In this document: positions 20,279-35,527 of the stretch, piece by piece | How the letters are laid out: every line of letters begins with the position of its first letter | Numbering within the stretch: position 1 is the first letter of the stretch | Assembly (NCBI GenBank): GCA_005808505.1 | Contig: SYLX01000164.1 | Location: 1-55,426, forward strand | DNA from: Bdellovibrionales bacterium | Lineage (GTDB): Bacteria > Bdellovibrionota > Bdellovibrionia > Bdellovibrionales > JAMPXM01 | DNA: 55,426 nucleotides | Direction: 5' to 3' | Made by a program: the position numbers and the translations under genes | Notes under the pieces: generated by a model | What the model was told of the DNA's origin: nothing | Database searches by the model: none | Seen by the model: only the letters and a program-made list of their open reading frames with translations

Positions 20279-21961
20279 ATGAGTCGTATGGAAAAGACAT
20301 CTGTGGGTCGTGGGGCGATCCGCATTGCTTTTGCTGTGTTTGCAGTTGGTCTCATCAACGGAGCGCATGAGGCGCAGGCAGCGCCGAAGAAGGGTGCTAA
20401 GCCCGTTGAAGTCGTACCGGGACAATTCGTTGTTCAATTGAAGCGCGATCGCGCTTACTTCAACCAAGCGGAACTTGAGCGCCGCATGGGCGGAAAGATC
20501 GTCGACGAAGTTCGTCCTGATATGATCGTTCTTCAGCGCGCAGGCCGAGAAAATCCGAAAGCGGTAGCTCGGTCGCTACGCTCGCTCTCGGAAGTCAAAA
20601 TCGCAGAACCTAACTTCATCTTCCGCATCATCGGCGCGCCGAACGATACGGACTATCAAAAGCTCTGGGGTCTGAATAACAACGGCGGACTCGACAGCGA
20701 AGGTACGCGTGGTTTGAAAGGTCTTGATATCAGCGCTGAGCGTGCGTGGGAAATCCAGCGCGGTTCAAAAGATGTCATCGTAGCCGTGATTGACACGGGT
20801 GTGGATTACACGCATCCCGAACTCGCTAACAATATGTGGAAGAACGAAGCTGAAGCTTCGGGGCAACCCGGCGTCGATGACGATGGCAACGGTTACATCG
20901 ACGACGTTCACGGAATGAATTTCGTCACAGACAAAGGTGATCCTAAAGACGATAACGGGCACGGAACTCACTGCGCAGGCACGATCGGTGCGGAAGGCAA
21001 TAACTCCGCAGGCCTCGTCGGTGTGAACTGGAACGTCAGCATCATGGCGATCAAGTTCCTTGATTCAAGCGGTGGCGGAACTCTCGCCAACGCGGTCAAA
21101 GCGATCGACTACGCGAAAAAATCGAAAGCAACGATCCTCTCCAACTCTTGGGGTGGCGCGATCGTTTCCGACATTCTTGAAAAAGCTGTGGAAGAAACTC
21201 GCGAAGCCGGAAAGCTCTTCATCGCGGCTGCCGGTAACGACGGTGCGAACAACGACAACGGCGGGACAGTTCCGGGCGGCTATCGCTTCGAGAACATTCT
21301 CTCGGTAGCGGCCGTGGATAACCGTGGTGAACTTGCTTCGTTCTCGAACTACGGAACTGCTTCCGTGCACGTCGCAGCTCCTGGCGTAAATATCGTGAGC
21401 ACCGTGCTTCGCGGCGCTTACGACACGTACTCTGGAACTTCGATGGCGACTCCTCACGTGGCGGGCGTCGCGGCTCTTCTTCTCGCAAACGATCCGACGC
21501 TTACGTACGCGCAACTCAAAGAAAGGATCATGACGTCGGCCCGTCCGCTGAACTCGCTCAAGGGTAAGATTCAAACTGGCGCGATGCTCGATGCTTACTA
21601 CGCGCTTTCGGGTGAGGCTCCGCCTGCTGATCCGAACGATCCTTCTATCTGGTCGGAGCGTGAAGAACGCCAACTCTCTTCGCCGCATCCTTATCCGGAT
21701 AAAGCGAAAGAGCTCTATACGATCACGGTTCCTGGAGCTAAGCGGATTTCGGTTCACTTCTCGAAATTTGAAACTGAATCAAGCTACGACAAGGTTCACT
21801 TCCAAAACGCGAGCGGTGAGACGTTTGGAGTCTGGACAGGAACTCAGTCCGGCCGCTTCAGCCCGATCATCGATGGAGACACGGTTACTTTGATGCTCAC
21901 ATCCGATAGCTCAGTGAATGGTTACGGATTCGACGTCGATTACATCGCCTACGAAAAGTAA
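20279..21961 (+). CDS. Secreted subtilisin-like serine protease with C-terminal CUB-like domain
   Basis: A 560-residue S8 peptidase. Signal peptide (basic start, cleavage near AQAA, about residue 35), I9-type propeptide (GQFVVQLKRD to about residue 118), then the catalytic domain with Asp172 (VIDTGVD), His228 (NGHGTHCAG), oxyanion Asn320 (AAAGN) and Ser388 (GTSMATPH). An Asp-rich loop (DDDGNGYIDDV, about 200-210) probably binds calcium. The last ~95 residues resemble a CUB domain (SKFETESSYDKVHF, VTLMLTSDSSVNGYGF). The start has a near-perfect AAGGAGG site. Probably exported to digest extracellular or prey protein. A related lipoprotein protease lies at 47.9-49.2 kb. Confidence 0.93.
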   Translation: MSRMEKTSVGRGAIRIAFAVFAVGLINGAHEAQAAPKKGAKPVEVVPGQFVVQLKRDRAYFNQAELERRMGGKIVDEVRPDMIVLQRAGRENPKAVARSLRSLSEVKIAEPNFIFRIIGAPNDTDYQKLWGLNNNGGLDSEGTRGLKGLDISAERAWEIQRGSKDVIVAVIDTGVDYTHPELANNMWKNEAEASGQPGVDDDGNGYIDDVHGMNFVTDKGDPKDDNGHGTHCAGTIGAEGNNSAGLVGVNWNVSIMAIKFLDSSGGGTLANAVKAIDYAKKSKATILSNSWGGAIVSDILEKAVEETREAGKLFIAAAGNDGANNDNGGTVPGGYRFENILSVAAVDNRGELASFSNYGTASVHVAAPGVNIVSTVLRGAYDTYSGTSMATPHVAGVAALLLANDPTLTYAQLKERIMTSARPLNSLKGKIQTGAMLDAYYALSGEAPPADPNDPSIWSEREERQLSSPHPYPDKAKELYTITVPGAKRISVHFSKFETESSYDKVHFQNASGETFGVWTGTQSGRFSPIIDGDTVTLMLTSDSSVNGYGFDVDYIAYEK

Positions 21962-21982: not shown

Positions 21983-22942
21983 CTACTTCGCCGCCTCGGA
22001 GCCCCGAGTGCGGCGTTTTTGTTTTTTCTTGGGAGCTTCAGTTGAAGGAGGCGCTTCCGAATCAGAAACGTAGTGATTCTCGGCCAAGAACTTTTCGATT
22101 CGAAGATTCACGAAGTCAGGCAAATCGAGTTGCGTGCAGTGCGATCCGTAGGGAACGCGCAGGTATTGGCTACCGCGAATCTGTCGATGCATCTTCTCTT
22201 GGTGCGATCGCGGAGTAACGCCGTCTTTGCTTCCGCTGATGATCAACACCGGAACTTCGATGCGATCCAAAACCTGAGTGCCATCGTAAGTCATCATCTG
22301 ATCAAAAAGTTTTATGAAGACATCCAGATCCATCGCCGCAACGCCGCGTGCGTAGACTTCGATGTCTTTCAAGCTCGTGAGACTCAGGTTGAAACCGCCA
22401 GCAAGTGAGCTCAATGGAATTGCAAGAGGGTTCGTGACTGCGAATTTCCAAATCGAAGATAACGTCGTCGGAATCGTGCGGTAGCCTTCTTTGAAAAGCT
22501 TGAACACGTGATCGACGACGTTCACGCCAAACATGCCTTTGATCGGATTCGACGCGAAACCGTTGATGAAAACCAGGTTCGAAACCGATTGGGGGAACAT
22601 ATCGTAAAACCGCAAGAGGATCTGAACGCCGTAGCTGTGTCCCCAAAAGGAAGCTTTCTCGATTCCGAGATGTTCCATCAATCCTTGCATGTCCCGGCAG
22701 ATCGCATCGAGCGTGAGATTCTCGCGATTCGTAGGTGCTGGCGTTTTGTGATGGCCGCGGTAATCGAAAACGATCGTCTGATAGTTCTCAGAGAAGTAGC
22801 GAATTTGGTGAGTCCAATGATTGATCAAACACGCAATGCCGTAACAGAGAAAAACGGGTCGACCTTCACCACGCACTTCGTAGTAAATCGGGGTGCCGTC
22901 GAAGCTAACGAATGTTCCGGTTTTCTTTGCGATCTCGGTCAA
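21983..22942 (-). CDS. Alpha/beta-hydrolase fold protein
   Basis: A 319-residue cytoplasmic-looking hydrolase with no signal peptide. Triad candidates are Ser103 in GHSYG, Asp in SGSKDGVTP (about residue 246) and His in GSHCTQLDLP (about 273). The oxyanion-hole HGG-type segment is replaced by CYGIA (33-37). The substrate is unknown. The C-terminal tail is Lys/Arg-rich (KKKQKRRTRGSEAAK) and is encoded entirely by the antisense of the converging subtilisin gene's terminator. The start is TTG 22942 with GGGGAAC upstream. It follows the FHA-protein gene by 27 bases, so the two are probably cotranscribed. Confidence 0.85.
   Translation of the reverse strand: MTEIAKKTGTFVSFDGTPIYYEVRGEGRPVFLCYGIACLINHWTHQIRYFSENYQTIVFDYRGHHKTPAPTNRENLTLDAICRDMQGLMEHLGIEKASFWGHSYGVQILLRFYDMFPQSVSNLVFINGFASNPIKGMFGVNVVDHVFKLFKEGYRTIPTTLSSIWKFAVTNPLAIPLSSLAGGFNLSLTSLKDIEVYARGVAAMDLDVFIKLFDQMMTYDGTQVLDRIEVPVLIISGSKDGVTPRSHQEKMHRQIRGSQYLRVPYGSHCTQLDLPDFVNLRIEKFLAENHYVSDSEAPPSTEAPKKKQKRRTRGSEAAK
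21989..22027 (+). terminator. Intrinsic terminator after the secreted subtilisin
   Basis: Stem CGCCGC-CTCGG (21989-21999) with CCGAG-T-GCGGCG (22004-22015), a 4-base loop, one bulged T, then TTTTTGTTTTTT. The whole element lies within the last codons of the convergent hydrolase gene. Confidence 0.93.
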
Positions 22943-29064: not shown

Positions 29065-29197
29065 CGTCTAAAGTGCGGTGCTGGAAGAGCTTGGGACGAT
29101 GTGCTGAACTTGCGCCAAACTAAAAACCGACCGAACCAAAGTCAAGAGCCCAAAAGCCAGACTAGGATTGCGCCTGGGGTTCTCTTACGATGGTGGA

Positions 29198-31684
29198 ATG
29201 AGCGCTTTTTTCAAGAAATTCCGGCGTGATGTCGCCGGTGTGATGTGGCTGGCGGCGAGTCTTTTCATGGGTCTGGCTTTGTTCAGCTTCAGACCTACGG
29301 ATCCGTCCTTCAATTCGACCGGCGTGAACCTCAAGGTTCACAACTTTTGCGGCTACTTCGGGAGCTTCATCGCCGATCTTTTGTACCAGTGCTGGGGTCT
29401 CAGCGCGTGGATCCTCACGGTTGGCTGCATTCGCCTTTGTTTGAGCACGTTTCGGGGCAAAACCGAGTCGTGGATCGGCCCCCGCCTCCTTTGGGGCCTC
29501 TTGCTCATGACGACGACCTCGAGCCTTTTTGCGCTTTACTTGCCTGGCAAGAAAGTCTTCAGCAATCAGATCCCTGTGGGCGGGATCGTCGGGACGGTCG
29601 TTTCAAAGGGATTGGTCTCCGCCTTTAACTTTTTGGGCGTGTCGATCATCCTTTGGAGCGTCGTTCTTCTTCTTTTGGTGTTCTACACCGAGCGCTCTTT
29701 GCCCGATCTTTTCAAAACGCCGATCGCTTTTTTCACGAAAATGCGTGAGTCGCTCTTCGAGAAGGGAAATCTTTTCCGTCAATTCTTCGAGTTCGATGCT
29801 TTGAAGCCTCAACCTGCTGGCGCAAGCGGCGGTTACGTTCACGACTCAAAAGAGTCCAAAAAAGAAAAGAAGGCTGACGAGAAGAAGTCAGAAAAAAAGG
29901 GCCTCCTTCCTCTAGCCGCGAAGCTGATTCAGCGCGCGGAAGCGGACAAAGCCGATTCTGCAAAAGAGGCAAAGGCTGCAAAGTCTCTCAAGCTTGAAGC
30001 GAAATCAGAAGAGACTGACGAATCTGCAGACGATGAAAATGATGAGAGCGAAGAGGAAGAAGCTCCGGCAGCTCCTCCCCGTCAGCTTAAACTCGAATCG
30101 GGAGATGTTGCGCGCCGAAAGGTTCGCCTCACGGCAAAAGTTGAACGCCGAGTTGAGAACTGGAAGCTCCCCGACATCAACTTGCTCGAAGATCCGCCCG
30201 TCACGCGTATCAAAATCGATGAGCGTGAGATCAACCGCAAAGCGCAAATTCTCGTAGACAAGCTGTCTCAGTTCTCCGTCAAAGGCGAAGTCGTTCACGC
30301 GAAGCCCGGCCCTGCGGTTACGATGTATGAGTTCAAGCCGAACGCTGACGTCAAAATCTCGAAGATCACGGAGCTTTCGCAAGACTTATCGCTCGCTCTT
30401 TCCAGTGAATCCGTTCGTATCATCGCGCCACTTCCGGGTCGCGACGTTGTCGGGATCGAGACGTCAAACTCGCAGCGCGAAACGGTTTACCTGAAAGATA
30501 TCTTGGCGAATGACAACTTCTGGTCGGATGCGATGAAGCTTCCGATTTGTCTTGGTCGTCAAGCTGACGGTGATCCGAAAGTCGTCGACTTGAGAAAGAT
30601 GCCGCATCTTCTCGTCGCGGGAACGACGGGTTCTGGTAAGTCCGTCTTCGTGGTTTCGGCGATTACGGGGCTTCTCTTCCGTCACTCCCCGAAGACTCTG
30701 CGCTTGATCCTCATCGATCCGAAGCAAGTCGACTTGGCAACCTTCAGCAATATTCCGCATTTGTTGATGCCGCCGATTCGGGAGCCCAAGAAAGCCGTCA
30801 CTGGATTGAAATGGGCGGTCCGCGAGATGGAAAAGCGCTATCGTTCGATGTCGAAGTTCGGTGCGCGTGGACTCGAAAGCTTCAACGAAATCGTGGGCAA
30901 GCTTCCTGAAGAGAAAGTGAAAGACCACGAAACATTGATGGCCGAGTGGGAGCTAGATGCGCGAAAGCTCGAGCAGTATTACTACACGCCCCAACCGTAC
31001 ATCGTAATTGTGTTGGAAGAGTTTGCGGACTTGATGGCCGTCGACAAACAAAATGTGGAAGGGTTGGTTGTTCGTTTGGCGCAGATGGCTCGCGCGTGCG
31101 GAATGCACTTGATCCTCGCAACGCAGAGCCCACGTAAAGACGTCGTCACGGGCTTAATCAAAACAAACATCCCGGGGCGTATCAGCTTTAAGGTCGCGAG
31201 CAAAATGGATTCGCGAATCGTTCTCGACGAAGGCGGAGCTGAGTGCTTGCTCCCGAACGGTGACAACTTGTACTTAGCGCCTGGGGTATCAAAACCGGGT
31301 CGTCACCACGCACCTTGGGTCACGGAAGCGGAAATCGCATCCGTGATGAAATTCTGGAGTGAGCAAGGCGAGCCTCAGTACGATGTCTTCGCCATGCGCG
31401 CTCTTGAAGGCACTGGCGGCGGCTTCGACCTGGGCGGCGAAGGCGAAGAAGGTGGCTTCGGTGGCGATGGCGATGAGAACGAATACGATGAGCGGTACGA
31501 CGAAGTTCTCGCCGCAGTTTCCGGCATGAAAGAAGTCAGTGCTTCGCTTCTGCAACGTAAGTTTAAATTGGGATACCCGCGCGCTGCGCGGATGATCGAA
31601 ATCTTTGAGCGCGAAGGCGTTGTCGGACCGGCCAACGGCAGCAAACCGCGCCAGGTTCTCGTGAATTCCTACCAAGATAAGTGA
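29198..31684 (+). CDS. ftsK: DNA translocase FtsK/SpoIIIE
   Basis: FtsK pumps chromosome ends across the closing septum and activates XerCD at dif. From ATG 29198 the protein has 828 residues. Four membrane helices lie in the first ~190 residues. A highly charged Lys/Glu/Ala linker follows (about 205-300), then the alpha/beta motor with Walker A GTTGSGKS (about 476-483) and Walker B IVIVLEEFADLM, then an Asp/Gly-rich spacer (about 740-765) and the C-terminal gamma winged helix (SASLLQRKFKLGYPRAARMI), which reads KOPS. The in-frame TTG at 29168 would add ten residues; it has no better ribosome-binding site. Linker is short compared with E. coli. Confidence 0.95.
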   Translation: MSAFFKKFRRDVAGVMWLAASLFMGLALFSFRPTDPSFNSTGVNLKVHNFCGYFGSFIADLLYQCWGLSAWILTVGCIRLCLSTFRGKTESWIGPRLLWGLLLMTTTSSLFALYLPGKKVFSNQIPVGGIVGTVVSKGLVSAFNFLGVSIILWSVVLLLLVFYTERSLPDLFKTPIAFFTKMRESLFEKGNLFRQFFEFDALKPQPAGASGGYVHDSKESKKEKKADEKKSEKKGLLPLAAKLIQRAEADKADSAKEAKAAKSLKLEAKSEETDESADDENDESEEEEAPAAPPRQLKLESGDVARRKVRLTAKVERRVENWKLPDINLLEDPPVTRIKIDEREINRKAQILVDKLSQFSVKGEVVHAKPGPAVTMYEFKPNADVKISKITELSQDLSLALSSESVRIIAPLPGRDVVGIETSNSQRETVYLKDILANDNFWSDAMKLPICLGRQADGDPKVVDLRKMPHLLVAGTTGSGKSVFVVSAITGLLFRHSPKTLRLILIDPKQVDLATFSNIPHLLMPPIREPKKAVTGLKWAVREMEKRYRSMSKFGARGLESFNEIVGKLPEEKVKDHETLMAEWELDARKLEQYYYTPQPYIVIVLEEFADLMAVDKQNVEGLVVRLAQMARACGMHLILATQSPRKDVVTGLIKTNIPGRISFKVASKMDSRIVLDEGGAECLLPNGDNLYLAPGVSKPGRHHAPWVTEAEIASVMKFWSEQGEPQYDVFAMRALEGTGGGFDLGGEGEEGGFGGDGDENEYDERYDEVLAAVSGMKEVSASLLQRKFKLGYPRAARMIEIFEREGVVGPANGSKPRQVLVNSYQDK

Positions 31685-31849: not shown

Positions 31850-31962
31850 GTCTTCGCGGCTTCCTTCAGCTCGCCGCCGCGCGAGCACTGCCCTTGACTC
31901 CGAATCTTCCGATGGGATGATAACCGCATTCTTATCTGCAAACCCATTCAAGGAGGATGGTT

Positions 31963-32553
31963 ATGACTAAATTTTTCGGATTGATCGCGTCGGCCATGGT
32001 GGCTTTCAGCGTTTCTTCTCAGGCACGGGCCGACTACCAAGTTGACGTGGCGGCTTTGCAAGCTTCGACAATGTTGGAAGCAAAAGCGACAGCGGGACTG
32101 AATTGGACCGTTGGCGACAAAGCTTCTTACGCACTCAAGCTCATGGGCGGAATGATCAAAGGGACTTCGAACAATATCGTTCGCGAAGACACGGGCACTC
32201 ATTACTGGATGGTTCAAGACATGGACCTCATGGGCCAAAAGCAAAAAGCTGAAGCCATGTTGAACAAGCAAACAGGTGCCATCGAAAAGCTCTTGGTGAA
32301 CGGTCAGGAACAGAAAGTTCCCGACGCAGGCGAGCAAGAGATCCTCGAGATGAAAGAAGCTAACGTCACGGTTGCGGCTGGCACTTACGACTGCATCTAT
32401 GCAAAGATCAAAAACAAATCAGATGGTAAAATCACTGAGGCTTGGATCAACCCACAAGCCGTTCCCATGACGGGCATGATCAAAGCCATCGCGGATAGCC
32501 AACTTGGAAAAGTCGAACAAGAACTCACATCTGCGGAATTCGCGAAGAAGTAA
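31963..32553 (+). CDS. Small secreted protein of unknown function
   Basis: A 196-residue protein with signal peptide MTKFFGLIASAMVAFSVSSQ (cleavage near ARA-DYQ, about residue 24). The mature part alternates beta strands (LNWTVGDKASYAL, HYWMVQDMDL, TVAAGTYDCIYAKIKNK) and looks like an antiparallel beta fold, possibly related to LolA/DUF3108-like periplasmic proteins, but this is only a resemblance. A single Cys (TYDCIYA). AAGGAGG lies six bases before ATG 31963; an ATG at 31957 is too close to it. A TPR protein gene follows after 10 bases, with a terminator between or inside its start. Confidence 0.75.
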   Translation: MTKFFGLIASAMVAFSVSSQARADYQVDVAALQASTMLEAKATAGLNWTVGDKASYALKLMGGMIKGTSNNIVREDTGTHYWMVQDMDLMGQKQKAEAMLNKQTGAIEKLLVNGQEQKVPDAGEQEILEMKEANVTVAAGTYDCIYAKIKNKSDGKITEAWINPQAVPMTGMIKAIADSQLGKVEQELTSAEFAKK

Positions 32554-32563
32554 TCTTCTCAGC

Positions 32564-33544
32564 TTGAGAACGAGGAAGGCGGTCGCTTCGGCGGCCGCTT
32601 TTGTTTTCGTCGCCTCCTCACTCGGCGCATCTCTCGCCCGAGCGCAAAAACCGACACCAAAGCCAGCCAACAAACCATCGACGACCAGCTCTGAAAAAGC
32701 GGCCGCATCCACGTCGGGATCAGGCGGGCGTCTTGAGAACCATCAAGATCTCATCGCAAAAGCGCAGAATCTGACCTTACAGCGCGATCGTCTCCAGGCG
32801 AGCCAAGTTTTGATTCGTGCTCTTCAGCCATTACAGAAAGACAAATCGTCGGCCGCATACAAAGAGCTCGTAACGGCCCTCGATGAATTAACGACTGTGT
32901 TTTACACCGAAAAGGCTCAAAGCCATTTTGCAACGGCAGAATCGTTGATGGAAACGAGGCCTCGAGAAGCTCTCGATCAACTTCAAGAAGCTCTCCAAAA
33001 AGAAGAACGAAACGTTACGGTTCTAAAAACAATCGCGCGCATTCATCTTCGAGCCGTTGATTGCAGTCGCGCTGATACGGCGGTGAAGCAAGCTGAAGAA
33101 GTAAACCCCTATTCAGCCGAAATTAAGCTTTTGCGGTTGCAGACTCTGGCGTGCCAGAAAAATTTTGAACTCCTCGGCACTAAACTCGAGGCTCAAACTC
33201 AAGATCTAGAGTCAGTGGAGAAATTCACCAAGTCGCTTCAAATCCAAGAGCAAATGCACGAGAAAGATCTCAAAAAAGCTCGAGCTACTCTTACGAGCTG
33301 GGAGTCGCAACAGCCCGATTATCCCGAAGTGCAATTTTGGAAGTGGGAGCTTTCCCGCCAAACGCCGACTCCAGATCGTACGGCTGCGTTGAAGTACGTC
33401 CAACTTTGCCAAAATCTCACACCGAGAAAGCGCAAAAGCTTCAGTTTAGACGTCGAATTGTGTAAGGGAAAAGAGCAGGTCGACGCTTATCTCAGAGAAG
33501 TTCAACTTCAGTCCTCGGAGGCGTCGGGAGAGGATGCGAGATAA
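32564..33544 (+). CDS. Exported TPR-like helical protein
   Basis: About 326 residues from TTG 32564. Signal peptide with RTRK n-region and AVASAAAFVFVASSLGASLA core (cleavage near ARAQ), then a Pro/Lys/Ser-rich linker (about 29-55) and helical repeats with TPR-like periodicity through about residue 300. Cys pairs occur near VDCSRAD and LACQKNF. Function unknown. Other in-frame starts are TTG 32504, which overlaps the preceding gene by 50 bases; no ATG is available and no good ribosome-binding site is visible. A UUCG-loop terminator overlaps codons 5-15. The stop overlaps the next gene's start by one base (TAATG). Confidence 0.7.
   Translation: MRTRKAVASAAAFVFVASSLGASLARAQKPTPKPANKPSTTSSEKAAASTSGSGGRLENHQDLIAKAQNLTLQRDRLQASQVLIRALQPLQKDKSSAAYKELVTALDELTTVFYTEKAQSHFATAESLMETRPREALDQLQEALQKEERNVTVLKTIARIHLRAVDCSRADTAVKQAEEVNPYSAEIKLLRLQTLACQKNFELLGTKLEAQTQDLESVEKFTKSLQIQEQMHEKDLKKARATLTSWESQQPDYPEVQFWKWELSRQTPTPDRTAALKYVQLCQNLTPRKRKSFSLDVELCKGKEQVDAYLREVQLQSSEASGEDAR
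32576..32607 (+). terminator. Terminator overlapping the signal-peptide codons of the TPR protein
   Basis: GCGGTCGC (32579-32586) and GCGGCCGC (32591-32598) pair with one G-U wobble around a UUCG tetraloop. The stem extends by AAG/UUU pairs to about 11 bp. TTTTGTTTT (32599-32607) follows. It lies 22 bases after the stop of the 31963-32553 gene. Confidence 0.88.
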
Positions 33545-33783
33545 TGTTCGCGAAAGTCTCGAAGAATCATCGTTTTCAGGTCGCAATATTTTTCGGTTTG
33601 CTTTCGAGTCTCGTTGCCTGCGGAGTCAAGGGTCCTCCGCGCCCTCCTGAACGAAGCGCCGAGCTCGGAAGAGGGCAGCCTTCCTTTACTCGAGCAACGG
33701 AACAATTTGCGTTCCCTGATGTGCCAAGTCCCGATGGCACACCCCAACCTACGAAAAAGCAGCAAAGCGGGGAATCGAATTGA
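33544..33783 (+). CDS. lptM: LptM/YifL-like small lipoprotein
   Basis: A 79-residue lipoprotein with signal ending SSLVAC (Cys26), followed immediately by GVKGPPRPPE, the C-G-x-K-G-P hallmark of the LptM (YifL) family. E. coli LptM assists LptD oxidative maturation at the outer membrane. The remainder is Pro/Gln/Ser-rich and disordered. It stands directly before dapF, as yifL does in E. coli, which supports the assignment. The ATG overlaps the preceding stop (TAATG) and its own stop overlaps the dapF ATG (TGATG). Confidence 0.85.
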   Translation: MFAKVSKNHRFQVAIFFGLLSSLVACGVKGPPRPPERSAELGRGQPSFTRATEQFAFPDVPSPDGTPQPTKKQQSGESN

Positions 33784-34652
33784 TGTCGACTCCAGACGGG
33801 GGACAAGTGGCATCAACCGATCTTACCTTTAGCAAACTGCAAGGCACCGGGAACGACTTCCTTTTCGTAGATGCTCGTACGGCTCTTCCGCCCCTGATTG
33901 AGAAAATTCCGCGACCTGAGCTTGCGCGAAAGCTTTGTCACCGCCAGTTCGGGGTAGGGGCTGATGGTTTAGTCTTCGTTGAGACCGGCTCATCACCTGA
34001 TCTGCTCAAATGGGATTTCTATAATAACGACGGCTCAACCGCTGAGATGTGCGGAAACGCGAGCCGATGTATGGGGCGGTGGGCCCACACAAAGCTTGGC
34101 CTTCAAAACCTCACGTTTGAAACACGATCTGGATTGGTGACAACCAAAGTGGTTGGCGAAGAGATCTCTTCACATCTTGATTATCTCTCGCTTCAATTTC
34201 GAACTTTGGATTTCGAGTTCGACGGTAAAAAATTTAAAGCCAACTTCGTGAACACCGGTGTGCCTCATGCGGTAGTCGAAATCGAAAAGATTGCGAGCGC
34301 TAACCCCGACGATGCTTTTGCCGCCGCGGCCATTCGCCAGCTAAGGTTTCATCCCGATGCGGGCTCAAAGGGGACGAACATTACCTTCCTTGAAAAACGA
34401 GGAGAAGATCAATTCGCGACCACAACCTTTGAGCGCGGTGTTGAAGACTTCACGCTCTCGTGCGGAACCGGAGTTCTTTCAGCAGCGGCGACGGGATTAG
34501 AAAAATCGAAAATAGAGATCAAGAAAGCGACCGTTGAATCGCCGGGAGGGCGATTGAAAGTTGAATTCGGCAAATCGTGGCGTGGAGCTTCTCTGCAAGG
34601 ACCCGCAGTGCATGTCTTCGACGGTCGAGTGCCAGAAAGATTTTTGAAATGA
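33783..34652 (+). CDS. dapF: Diaminopimelate epimerase
   Basis: Converts LL- to meso-diaminopimelate for peptidoglycan and lysine. The 289-residue protein has KLQGTGNDFLFVD at the N-terminus and two catalytic Cys motifs: Cys90 in EMCGNASRC and the second in SCGTG (about residue 230). HRQFGVGADGL and GSKGTNITF are also typical. ATG 33783 overlaps the upstream stop; an in-frame TTG at 33780 is also possible. It overlaps dapA by ATGA. With dapA and dapB it forms a coupled operon. Confidence 0.96.
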   Translation: MSTPDGGQVASTDLTFSKLQGTGNDFLFVDARTALPPLIEKIPRPELARKLCHRQFGVGADGLVFVETGSSPDLLKWDFYNNDGSTAEMCGNASRCMGRWAHTKLGLQNLTFETRSGLVTTKVVGEEISSHLDYLSLQFRTLDFEFDGKKFKANFVNTGVPHAVVEIEKIASANPDDAFAAAAIRQLRFHPDAGSKGTNITFLEKRGEDQFATTTFERGVEDFTLSCGTGVLSAAATGLEKSKIEIKKATVESPGGRLKVEFGKSWRGASLQGPAVHVFDGRVPERFLK

Positions 34653-35527
34653 AGGATTTCTCAGGAGTCTTCACCGCCCTCATCACGCCTTTTAAAGATG
34701 GCGAAATCGACTGGAAGTCGCTGCAGAAGCTGGTTCGCTTCCAGCTCGACGGTGGGATCAACGGTTTTGTTGTCATCGGAACAACAGCTGAAAGCCCAAA
34801 TCTTACGCCTCAAGAAAAACAAAAATTGTTTGAGTATGTGAAATCGGAATCAGCCGGCCAGGTGCCGCTGATCGTAGGAACAGGCTCTAACAGTACAAGC
34901 GAGACAATTGCGGCAACGCAAGCTGCGGCAAGGTGGGGGGCCGATGCGGCTCTCGTCGTTGTTCCCTACTATAACCGCCCCCCGCAGCGCGGACTCTTTG
35001 CGCACTACCAGAAGGTCGCGGAGTGTTCGGATCTTCCCGTCATTCTCTACAACGTTCCTTCGCGTACGGTTGCGAAGCTAGAACTCGAAACCATCAAAGA
35101 GCTGAGTCACCTCCCCAAGATCATCGGCATCAAAGAAGCCACAGGTGACATCGGGTTTGCGCGCCAAATCGCTCACGACTGTGGAAAGTCTTTCTTACTT
35201 TCCAGCGGCGATGACGGCACGTACTTGGATTTGGTTGCGGCCGGAGGACACGGAACAATCGCCGTTGCTTCGCATATCTTGCCGAAAGAATTTACGACTT
35301 GGTGCGATCGTGTGCGCAAAGGCGATCAAACGGCAAAACAGGAGTTTTCTCGCTACGCGGAACTTATTGCGGGCCTTTACCTCGAGTCAAATCCGATTCC
35401 CGTGAAGATGGCTCTTCATTTGATGAACATCATTGAAAGCCCTGAGTTAAGACTTCCGCTCGTAACTCTCTCTGAGCCTTACAAAGCTGAGTTGAAGAAT
35501 CGAATGATGGCGGTTGGTCTCTTATGA
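34649..35527 (+). CDS. dapA: 4-hydroxy-tetrahydrodipicolinate synthase
   Basis: Condenses pyruvate with aspartate semialdehyde in the lysine/DAP pathway. From ATG 34649 the protein has 292 residues, the standard length. Schiff-base Lys162 (IGIKEATGD), Tyr134 in LYNVPSRT, GTTAESP (44-50), and the VPYYNRPPQ loop are all present. The upstream in-frame start at 34577 lies inside dapF and is not used in my view. It overlaps both neighbours by ATGA. Confidence 0.96.
   Translation: MKDFSGVFTALITPFKDGEIDWKSLQKLVRFQLDGGINGFVVIGTTAESPNLTPQEKQKLFEYVKSESAGQVPLIVGTGSNSTSETIAATQAAARWGADAALVVVPYYNRPPQRGLFAHYQKVAECSDLPVILYNVPSRTVAKLELETIKELSHLPKIIGIKEATGDIGFARQIAHDCGKSFLLSSGDDGTYLDLVAAGGHGTIAVASHILPKEFTTWCDRVRKGDQTAKQEFSRYAELIAGLYLESNPIPVKMALHLMNIIESPELRLPLVTLSEPYKAELKNRMMAVGLL

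Follow-up and report, generated by a model that had tools for sequence, protein, structure and literature searches.

Gene order at the locus

In a Bdellovibrionales genome, a gene for an exported protein is followed by a hairpin and a U-tract that lie within the first codons of the next gene, also predicted to encode an exported protein. This raises the question of which of the two genes owns the element, and what its position means for transcription of the second one. A preliminary description of this DNA had suggested a switch, in which transcription would go on or stop according to whether the signal sequence is translated.

The window, i.e. the whole stretch of 55,426 nucleotides that was analysed, carries on its + strand, in this order, an ftsK-like gene (29168..31684), a gene whose exported product has about 196 amino acids (31957..32553, with a first ATG at 31957 and a second at 31963; hereafter the upstream gene), a gene for an exported TPR-like protein of 326 amino acids (32564..33544; the downstream gene), an LptM-like small lipoprotein gene (33544..33783), dapF (diaminopimelate epimerase, 33789..34652) and dapA (dihydrodipicolinate synthase, 34646..35527). 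Since the start of the LptM-like gene overlaps the stop of the TPR-like gene, we assigned both to the same operon. The ftsK-like gene adjoins the pair in 38 of the 39 relatives with sufficient flank. The sole sigma70-like promoter match near the upstream gene (TTGACT-16-GATGAT, 31894..31921, + strand) is a weak prediction, and was set aside because the count is below chance expectation (1 match found vs 3.1 expected in shuffles). No promoter was found between the upstream and downstream genes, where there is almost no room for one.

The upstream protein shows weak similarity to DUF3108, and its predicted fold is only loosely of the LolA/RseB periplasmic type; a search by sequence found no solved relative. 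It is conserved, very highly codon-biased and periplasmic.

A terminator-shaped hairpin within signal-peptide codons

The hairpin occupies positions 32575..32602 (+ strand) and comprises 11-12 bp with an A-U foot, a G+C core (32579-32598) and a UUCG loop. Its arms, AAGGCGGTCGC-TTCG-GCGGCCGCTTT, pair perfectly over 11 bp, two of them G-U (-17.4 kcal/mol), and a slightly wider stretch folds into 12 bp (-19.5 kcal/mol). The U-tract TTTTGTTTT (32599..32607, + strand) follows directly, giving the arrangement of an intrinsic terminator, a G+C-rich stem-loop with a U-tract immediately after it. The hairpin starts 22 nt past the TAA of the upstream gene and 11-12 nt past the first base of the TTG at 32564..32566 (+ strand), the likely start codon of the downstream gene, which lies 10 nt from the end of the upstream ORF. 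An alternative in-frame TTG at 32504 is also 5' of the hairpin, and the next in-frame ATG, GTG or TTG after 32564 is TTG 32810, within the mature protein. As there is no in-frame start between 32564 and 32810, every mRNA for the exported TPR protein includes the hairpin.

The putative signal-peptide codons LRTRKAVASAAAFVFVASSLGASLARA span 32564..32644 (+ strand), with a cleavage site judged by eye, not by SignalP. Counted from TTG 32564, codons 5-15 read K A V A S A A A F V F, the U-tract encoding the F-V-F of the hydrophobic core. Read from the DNA, the same bases serve as a terminator-shaped element and as a signal sequence. The preliminary description had reported a UUCG hairpin with a stem of about 11 bp and a U-tract after the upstream gene, its exact coincidence with codons 5-15 (KAVASAAA and FVF), and the lack of a start codon between it and the mature protein; direct reading and folding of the sequence bore out all of these.

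Terminators were scored on a d'Aubenton-Carafa-type scale with a ViennaRNA-based scorer; a simple stem scorer with greedy mismatches was dropped, as it missed bulged hairpins such as that of L046. None of 150 synonymous recodings of the window junction matched its terminator score. Over both strands of the whole 55-kb window only five hairpins scored above 10, and at this threshold the junction hairpin was the only terminator in the first 100 nt of any called gene, so that its earlier ranking as the strongest of four was not reproduced. Elsewhere in the window, a strong terminator (score 54, 21989-22015) follows the gene at 20279-21961 and overlaps the 3' end of a convergent gene (21983-22942).

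Conservation of the junction among relatives

Searches for the downstream protein covered 60 relative genomes; those for the upstream protein covered 141 genomes of the order and GTDB-named contigs, including Bdellovibrio bacteriovorus. The upstream protein is present in 84 of the 141 genomes of the order, and 91 distinct junction records were assembled, with the gene pair adjacent in 60. Among these 60 junctions, 54 score above 0 and 46 above 15, with a median of 30 that compares with genomic terminator medians of 25-33. An in-frame start precedes the hairpin in 54 of the 60 (score cut-off -10), which places the hairpin within the first codons of the downstream gene; L049, whose hairpin lies about 134 nt past the stop, is a 55th in-coding case. 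Aligning the junction in relatives to see whether pairing and signal frame are both kept had been proposed earlier, and the outcome is clearly positive: the in-coding hairpins span 24 genera and three families (genus labels being taken from the order-wide upstream-protein search), with 34 distinct first stem heptamers among 54 hairpins. As the sequences are related, these counts are not independent events, and the number of genera and the diversity of stems are the fairer measure. Peptides encoded across the hairpin include KAALGAAFLF, KKGPQLHWGLFYF, RKGLIVSISLF, RVAIYATLFF, RRSSLAGAPFY and SYKACCARAFF. The stems of Bdellovibrio covary, as in GAGCCGC/GCGGCTC, GAGCCACC/GGTGGCTC and GAGCCGTC/GACGGCTC; within this genus four pairs are doubly changed (covariation score 0.204 vs 0.099, 0/500 shuffles).

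Several junctions depart from this pattern. In the genus Bdellovibrio the U-tract is interrupted (e.g. TTTCCTTTTT) and many species score only 0-27, so termination there may be weak. The hairpin is absent from L143, and scores are weak for L133, L092 and L063. L111, by eye, has kept a long stem inside the signal codons and lost the U-tract; this is a possible decayed terminator, and L125, from another species of its genus, carries a strong terminator. In L132 the start codon falls inside the hairpin, and in L040 and L098 it comes after it. L048 (same as L002) and L120 have no ATG, GTG or TTG from the upstream stop to the hairpin, implying that they start within the upstream gene or at an unusual codon; that of L048 may be ATT or lie 50 nt inside the upstream gene. 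The window (TTG 32504) and L042 share the TTG inside the upstream gene.

In relatives, the stem begins a median of 28 nt past the upstream stop (quartiles 23-34 nt), which equals the genomic norm, and the downstream start falls within -1 to +4 nt of that stop in 42 of 55 cases, often as TAATG.

Selection on the element and the gene to which it belongs

Signal peptides might give rise to such elements by coincidence, given that Lys/Arg, Ala runs and Phe yield A-rich, palindromic G+C and U-rich DNA. Synonymous recoding of the downstream N-terminus produced scores above 0 in 7.6% and above 15 in 2.2% of sequences, against 51/55 (93%) and 43/55 observed; when the downstream gene's own codons were shuffled, the values were 18.5% and 7.3%. 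Composition does raise the background, with 7.6% to 18.5% of recoded sequences scoring above 0, but the observed proportion is far beyond it. Phe codons in the U-tract are TTT:TTC 64:2, vs 410:268 elsewhere in the same genes, a bias partly inflated because the tails had been picked for T content. Judged by codon choice, the U-tract is under selection at third positions, and across relatives both the pairing and the U-tract are held by selection.

The orthologues that lack the adjacent upstream gene bear on the same point. None of 25 such downstream genes scores above 15 and only two score above 0, this set leaving out L196, L208, L216, L221 and L222 (fragmentary, weak, or with the upstream gene present). 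Conversely, 14 of 28 upstream genes that lack this neighbour have a terminator scoring about 10 or more within about 75 nt of their stop, an ordinary one at a distance similar to that in the gene pair. The terminator follows the presence of the upstream gene and is absent without it, which indicates that the element belongs to the upstream gene. Signal peptides of the same downstream gene are thus found without a terminator when the upstream gene is missing, and about 1 Mb of related genomes yielded only one further case at a signal-peptide gene. Taken with the synonymous null, the orthologues without the upstream gene refute an origin in signal-peptide composition, which we regard as hardly credible.

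The latter frequency comes from stretches of three relatives' genomes plus the window (about 1 Mb), in which genes and signal peptides were called by simple scripts, not by Prodigal or SignalP. Four terminators scoring above 10 occur there in the first 100 nt of signal-peptide genes, three of them at this locus, and the idea that such elements are common at signal-peptide genes in these genomes was rejected on this count. The fourth lies in an unrelated lipoprotein gene (G082:C4 ~384058-384075, - strand, within L187/L230), 13 nt after another gene, where a terminator-like hairpin GCCCCGCACTGACGGGGC followed by TTTTTATTT is found in the signal sequence MKFLKSPALTGLFILGLMFAGSAC... Among 294 tight co-directional gene pairs, five have a terminator scoring above 10, and two of these are this locus.

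A step in codon bias between the two genes

By codon adaptation to ribosomal-protein genes, the upstream gene ranks at the 100th, 99th and 87th percentile in G037, G082 and the window's genome, and the downstream gene at the 47th, 36th and 15th, the ranking for the window resting on only about 50 genes. The fraction of C-ending codons is higher in the upstream than in the downstream gene at 54 of 60 loci. In B. bacteriovorus HD100, ftsK is Bd0041 (PMC11318664); given the gene order, the upstream gene is probably Bd0042 in this strain, an assignment made from numbering, not from a sequence match, and the downstream gene is probably Bd0043. Bd0042 is reported to have a secretion signal and a log2 fold change of 2.15 at exit phase, and Bd0043 is absent from the table that lists it (PMC12546842). 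The codon-bias step and the data on Bd0042 and Bd0043 fit a terminator that steps expression down.

Proposed mechanism and alternative explanations

We consider it likely that the element is a leaky intrinsic terminator of the upstream gene, nested in the signal sequence of the next gene and giving a steep step-down in expression. This reading is consistent with what the sequences show: a terminator-shaped element in coding sequence, conserved and under selection, that depends on the upstream gene, and a step in codon bias between the two genes. The hairpin and U-tract would be a selected terminator that ends most transcripts of the presumably very highly expressed upstream gene. It sits within the first 10-20 codons of the gene that follows, and its bases would also specify where the n-region ends and the h-region begins in a Sec signal peptide, the A-rich foot standing for Lys/Arg, the G+C palindrome for Ala/Gly/Val and the U-tract for Phe/Leu. 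A minority of polymerases would read through and provide the mRNA for TPR-lptM-dapF-dapA, presumably by this route only. As the downstream start overlaps or abuts the upstream stop, ribosomes may re-start on the read-through RNA and open the hairpin by translating it. The net result would be a steep, sequence-set drop in expression from the first gene to the second with almost no intergenic DNA, and expression of the downstream genes is probably held low by the nested terminator. Control of dapF-dapA by the terminator is not a given, as these two genes could be transcribed from a promoter within the downstream gene. Terminated transcripts would offer a re-initiated ribosome a start codon without a stop codon, a cost that the model leaves unexplained; this is the same situation that approximately halved upstream expression in a published experiment (PMC4824070).

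The overlap could also be passive, a complete terminator of the upstream gene into which the downstream start has drifted, with the downstream genes served by their own inner promoters and the TPR gene receiving trace read-through at no selected ratio. Two observations speak for it: about half of the lone upstream genes retain a terminator of their own, and scores are strong in many genera. However, the stop-start coupling of most relatives and the signal frame, intact everywhere, suggest that read-through RNA is used, and the exported TPR protein cannot be made from RNA without the hairpin; we judge a purely passive overlap unlikely. An action on translation or mRNA stability only, for instance by slowing the ribosome at the signal sequence, seems highly improbable: beginning about 11-15 nt past the start codon, the hairpin could influence initiation, but the U-tract is under selection of its own and the element follows the upstream gene, as a terminator would.

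Translation might also gate the terminator, with read-through set by how closely the ribosome trails RNA polymerase as the upstream gene ends, or by the signal sequence itself. In this modified form of the earlier proposal, a close ribosome blocks the hairpin, polymerase goes on, and the overlapping start codon lets the ribosome begin again. Blocking of intrinsic terminator hairpins by ribosomes is known, e.g. in the pyr leader (PMC5021804), the stop and start codons here overlap or abut, and the stem starts 23-28 nt past the stop (lower quartile and median). In E. coli, terminators very near an upstream stop are repressed, with a fitted ribosome reach of 27 nt, and those located within 100 bp of the beginning of a coding sequence perform well; translation from an AUG 30 bp ahead of tR2 reduced the efficiency of this terminator by only about 10% (PMC4824070). 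This closest published experiment argues against a large effect of signal-sequence translation; ribosomes that complete the upstream gene may have a smaller one. The distance from stop to stem is near the 27-nt boundary yet is that of ordinary terminators in these genomes, so that a ribosome-gated component may exist. The hairpin also persists at +81 (L006) and about +134 (L049) from the stop, and a search for antiterminator pairing of the 5' arm with the preceding 110 nt found no conserved alternative structure (mean z -0.12). Overall, a translation-gated switch appears rather unlikely; if there is any gating by ribosomes, it more likely comes from those of the upstream gene than from the signal sequence. 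It is equally doubtful that the locus is a regulatory gate, where upstream ribosome coupling, varying with the predatory life cycle, would set transcription of TPR-lptM-dapF-dapA, and where the signal sequence would have evolved as RNA sensor and export signal. From the switch first proposed, the double duty of the bases and the presence of the hairpin in every mRNA for the exported protein stand. The part given to signal-sequence translation in deciding transcription is not supported, in view of the small effect in E. coli, of a hairpin that tracks the upstream gene and not the signal peptide, of a search that found no conserved alternative pairing and of the ordinary stop-to-hairpin spacing.

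Comparison with known systems and significance

A leaky nested terminator has its closest counterparts among internal terminators and attenuators. In the ABC substrate-binding-protein genes of cellulolytic clostridia (PMC9045158), a partial terminator behind a highly expressed exported-protein gene reduces the expression of the operon genes that follow, as predicted here; there the stem-loops lie in long intergenic regions, whereas here the element is inside signal-peptide codons with abutting stop and start, and 54 of the 60 junctions have it within the coding sequence of the downstream gene. The pair here is tight and co-directional with a strong codon-bias step, and the upstream product may be in excess. 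The frd terminator/ampC attenuator of E. coli and nlpD1/penA of Burkholderia (PMC6045580) likewise have an upstream terminator that also limits transcription into an exported-protein gene, as we predict at this locus. The penA hairpin lies in an untranslated leader (-73 to -25), while here it is translated and no promoter was found between the genes. Attenuators of the pyrBI type (pyrL) and engineered early-coding terminators (PMC4824070, PMC5021804) share with our case a terminator in a translated frame, which a ribosome can open in them and may open here, but the frame in question there encodes a regulatory leader peptide or is a synthetic ORF. Here there is no dedicated short leader ORF: the frame is that of the structural gene itself and appears to encode the functional signal peptide of a conserved protein. 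No prior report of a terminator inside signal-peptide codons was found in the open-access literature, and among the known systems we found none that puts a terminator in what looks like a functional signal peptide conserved across an order.

The locus offers an order-wide case of one DNA stretch that appears to be under two codes, RNA termination and a Sec signal peptide, with dozens of sequences keeping both. It indicates that the codons of a functional gene can harbour a conserved intrinsic terminator, a position that terminator and operon predictors usually exclude, and suggests that signal peptides, with their Lys/Arg, Ala and Phe/Leu, may be unusually easy hosts for terminators. In Bdellovibrio, it provides a place for direct tests of transcription-translation coupling and of the handling of non-stop mRNA.
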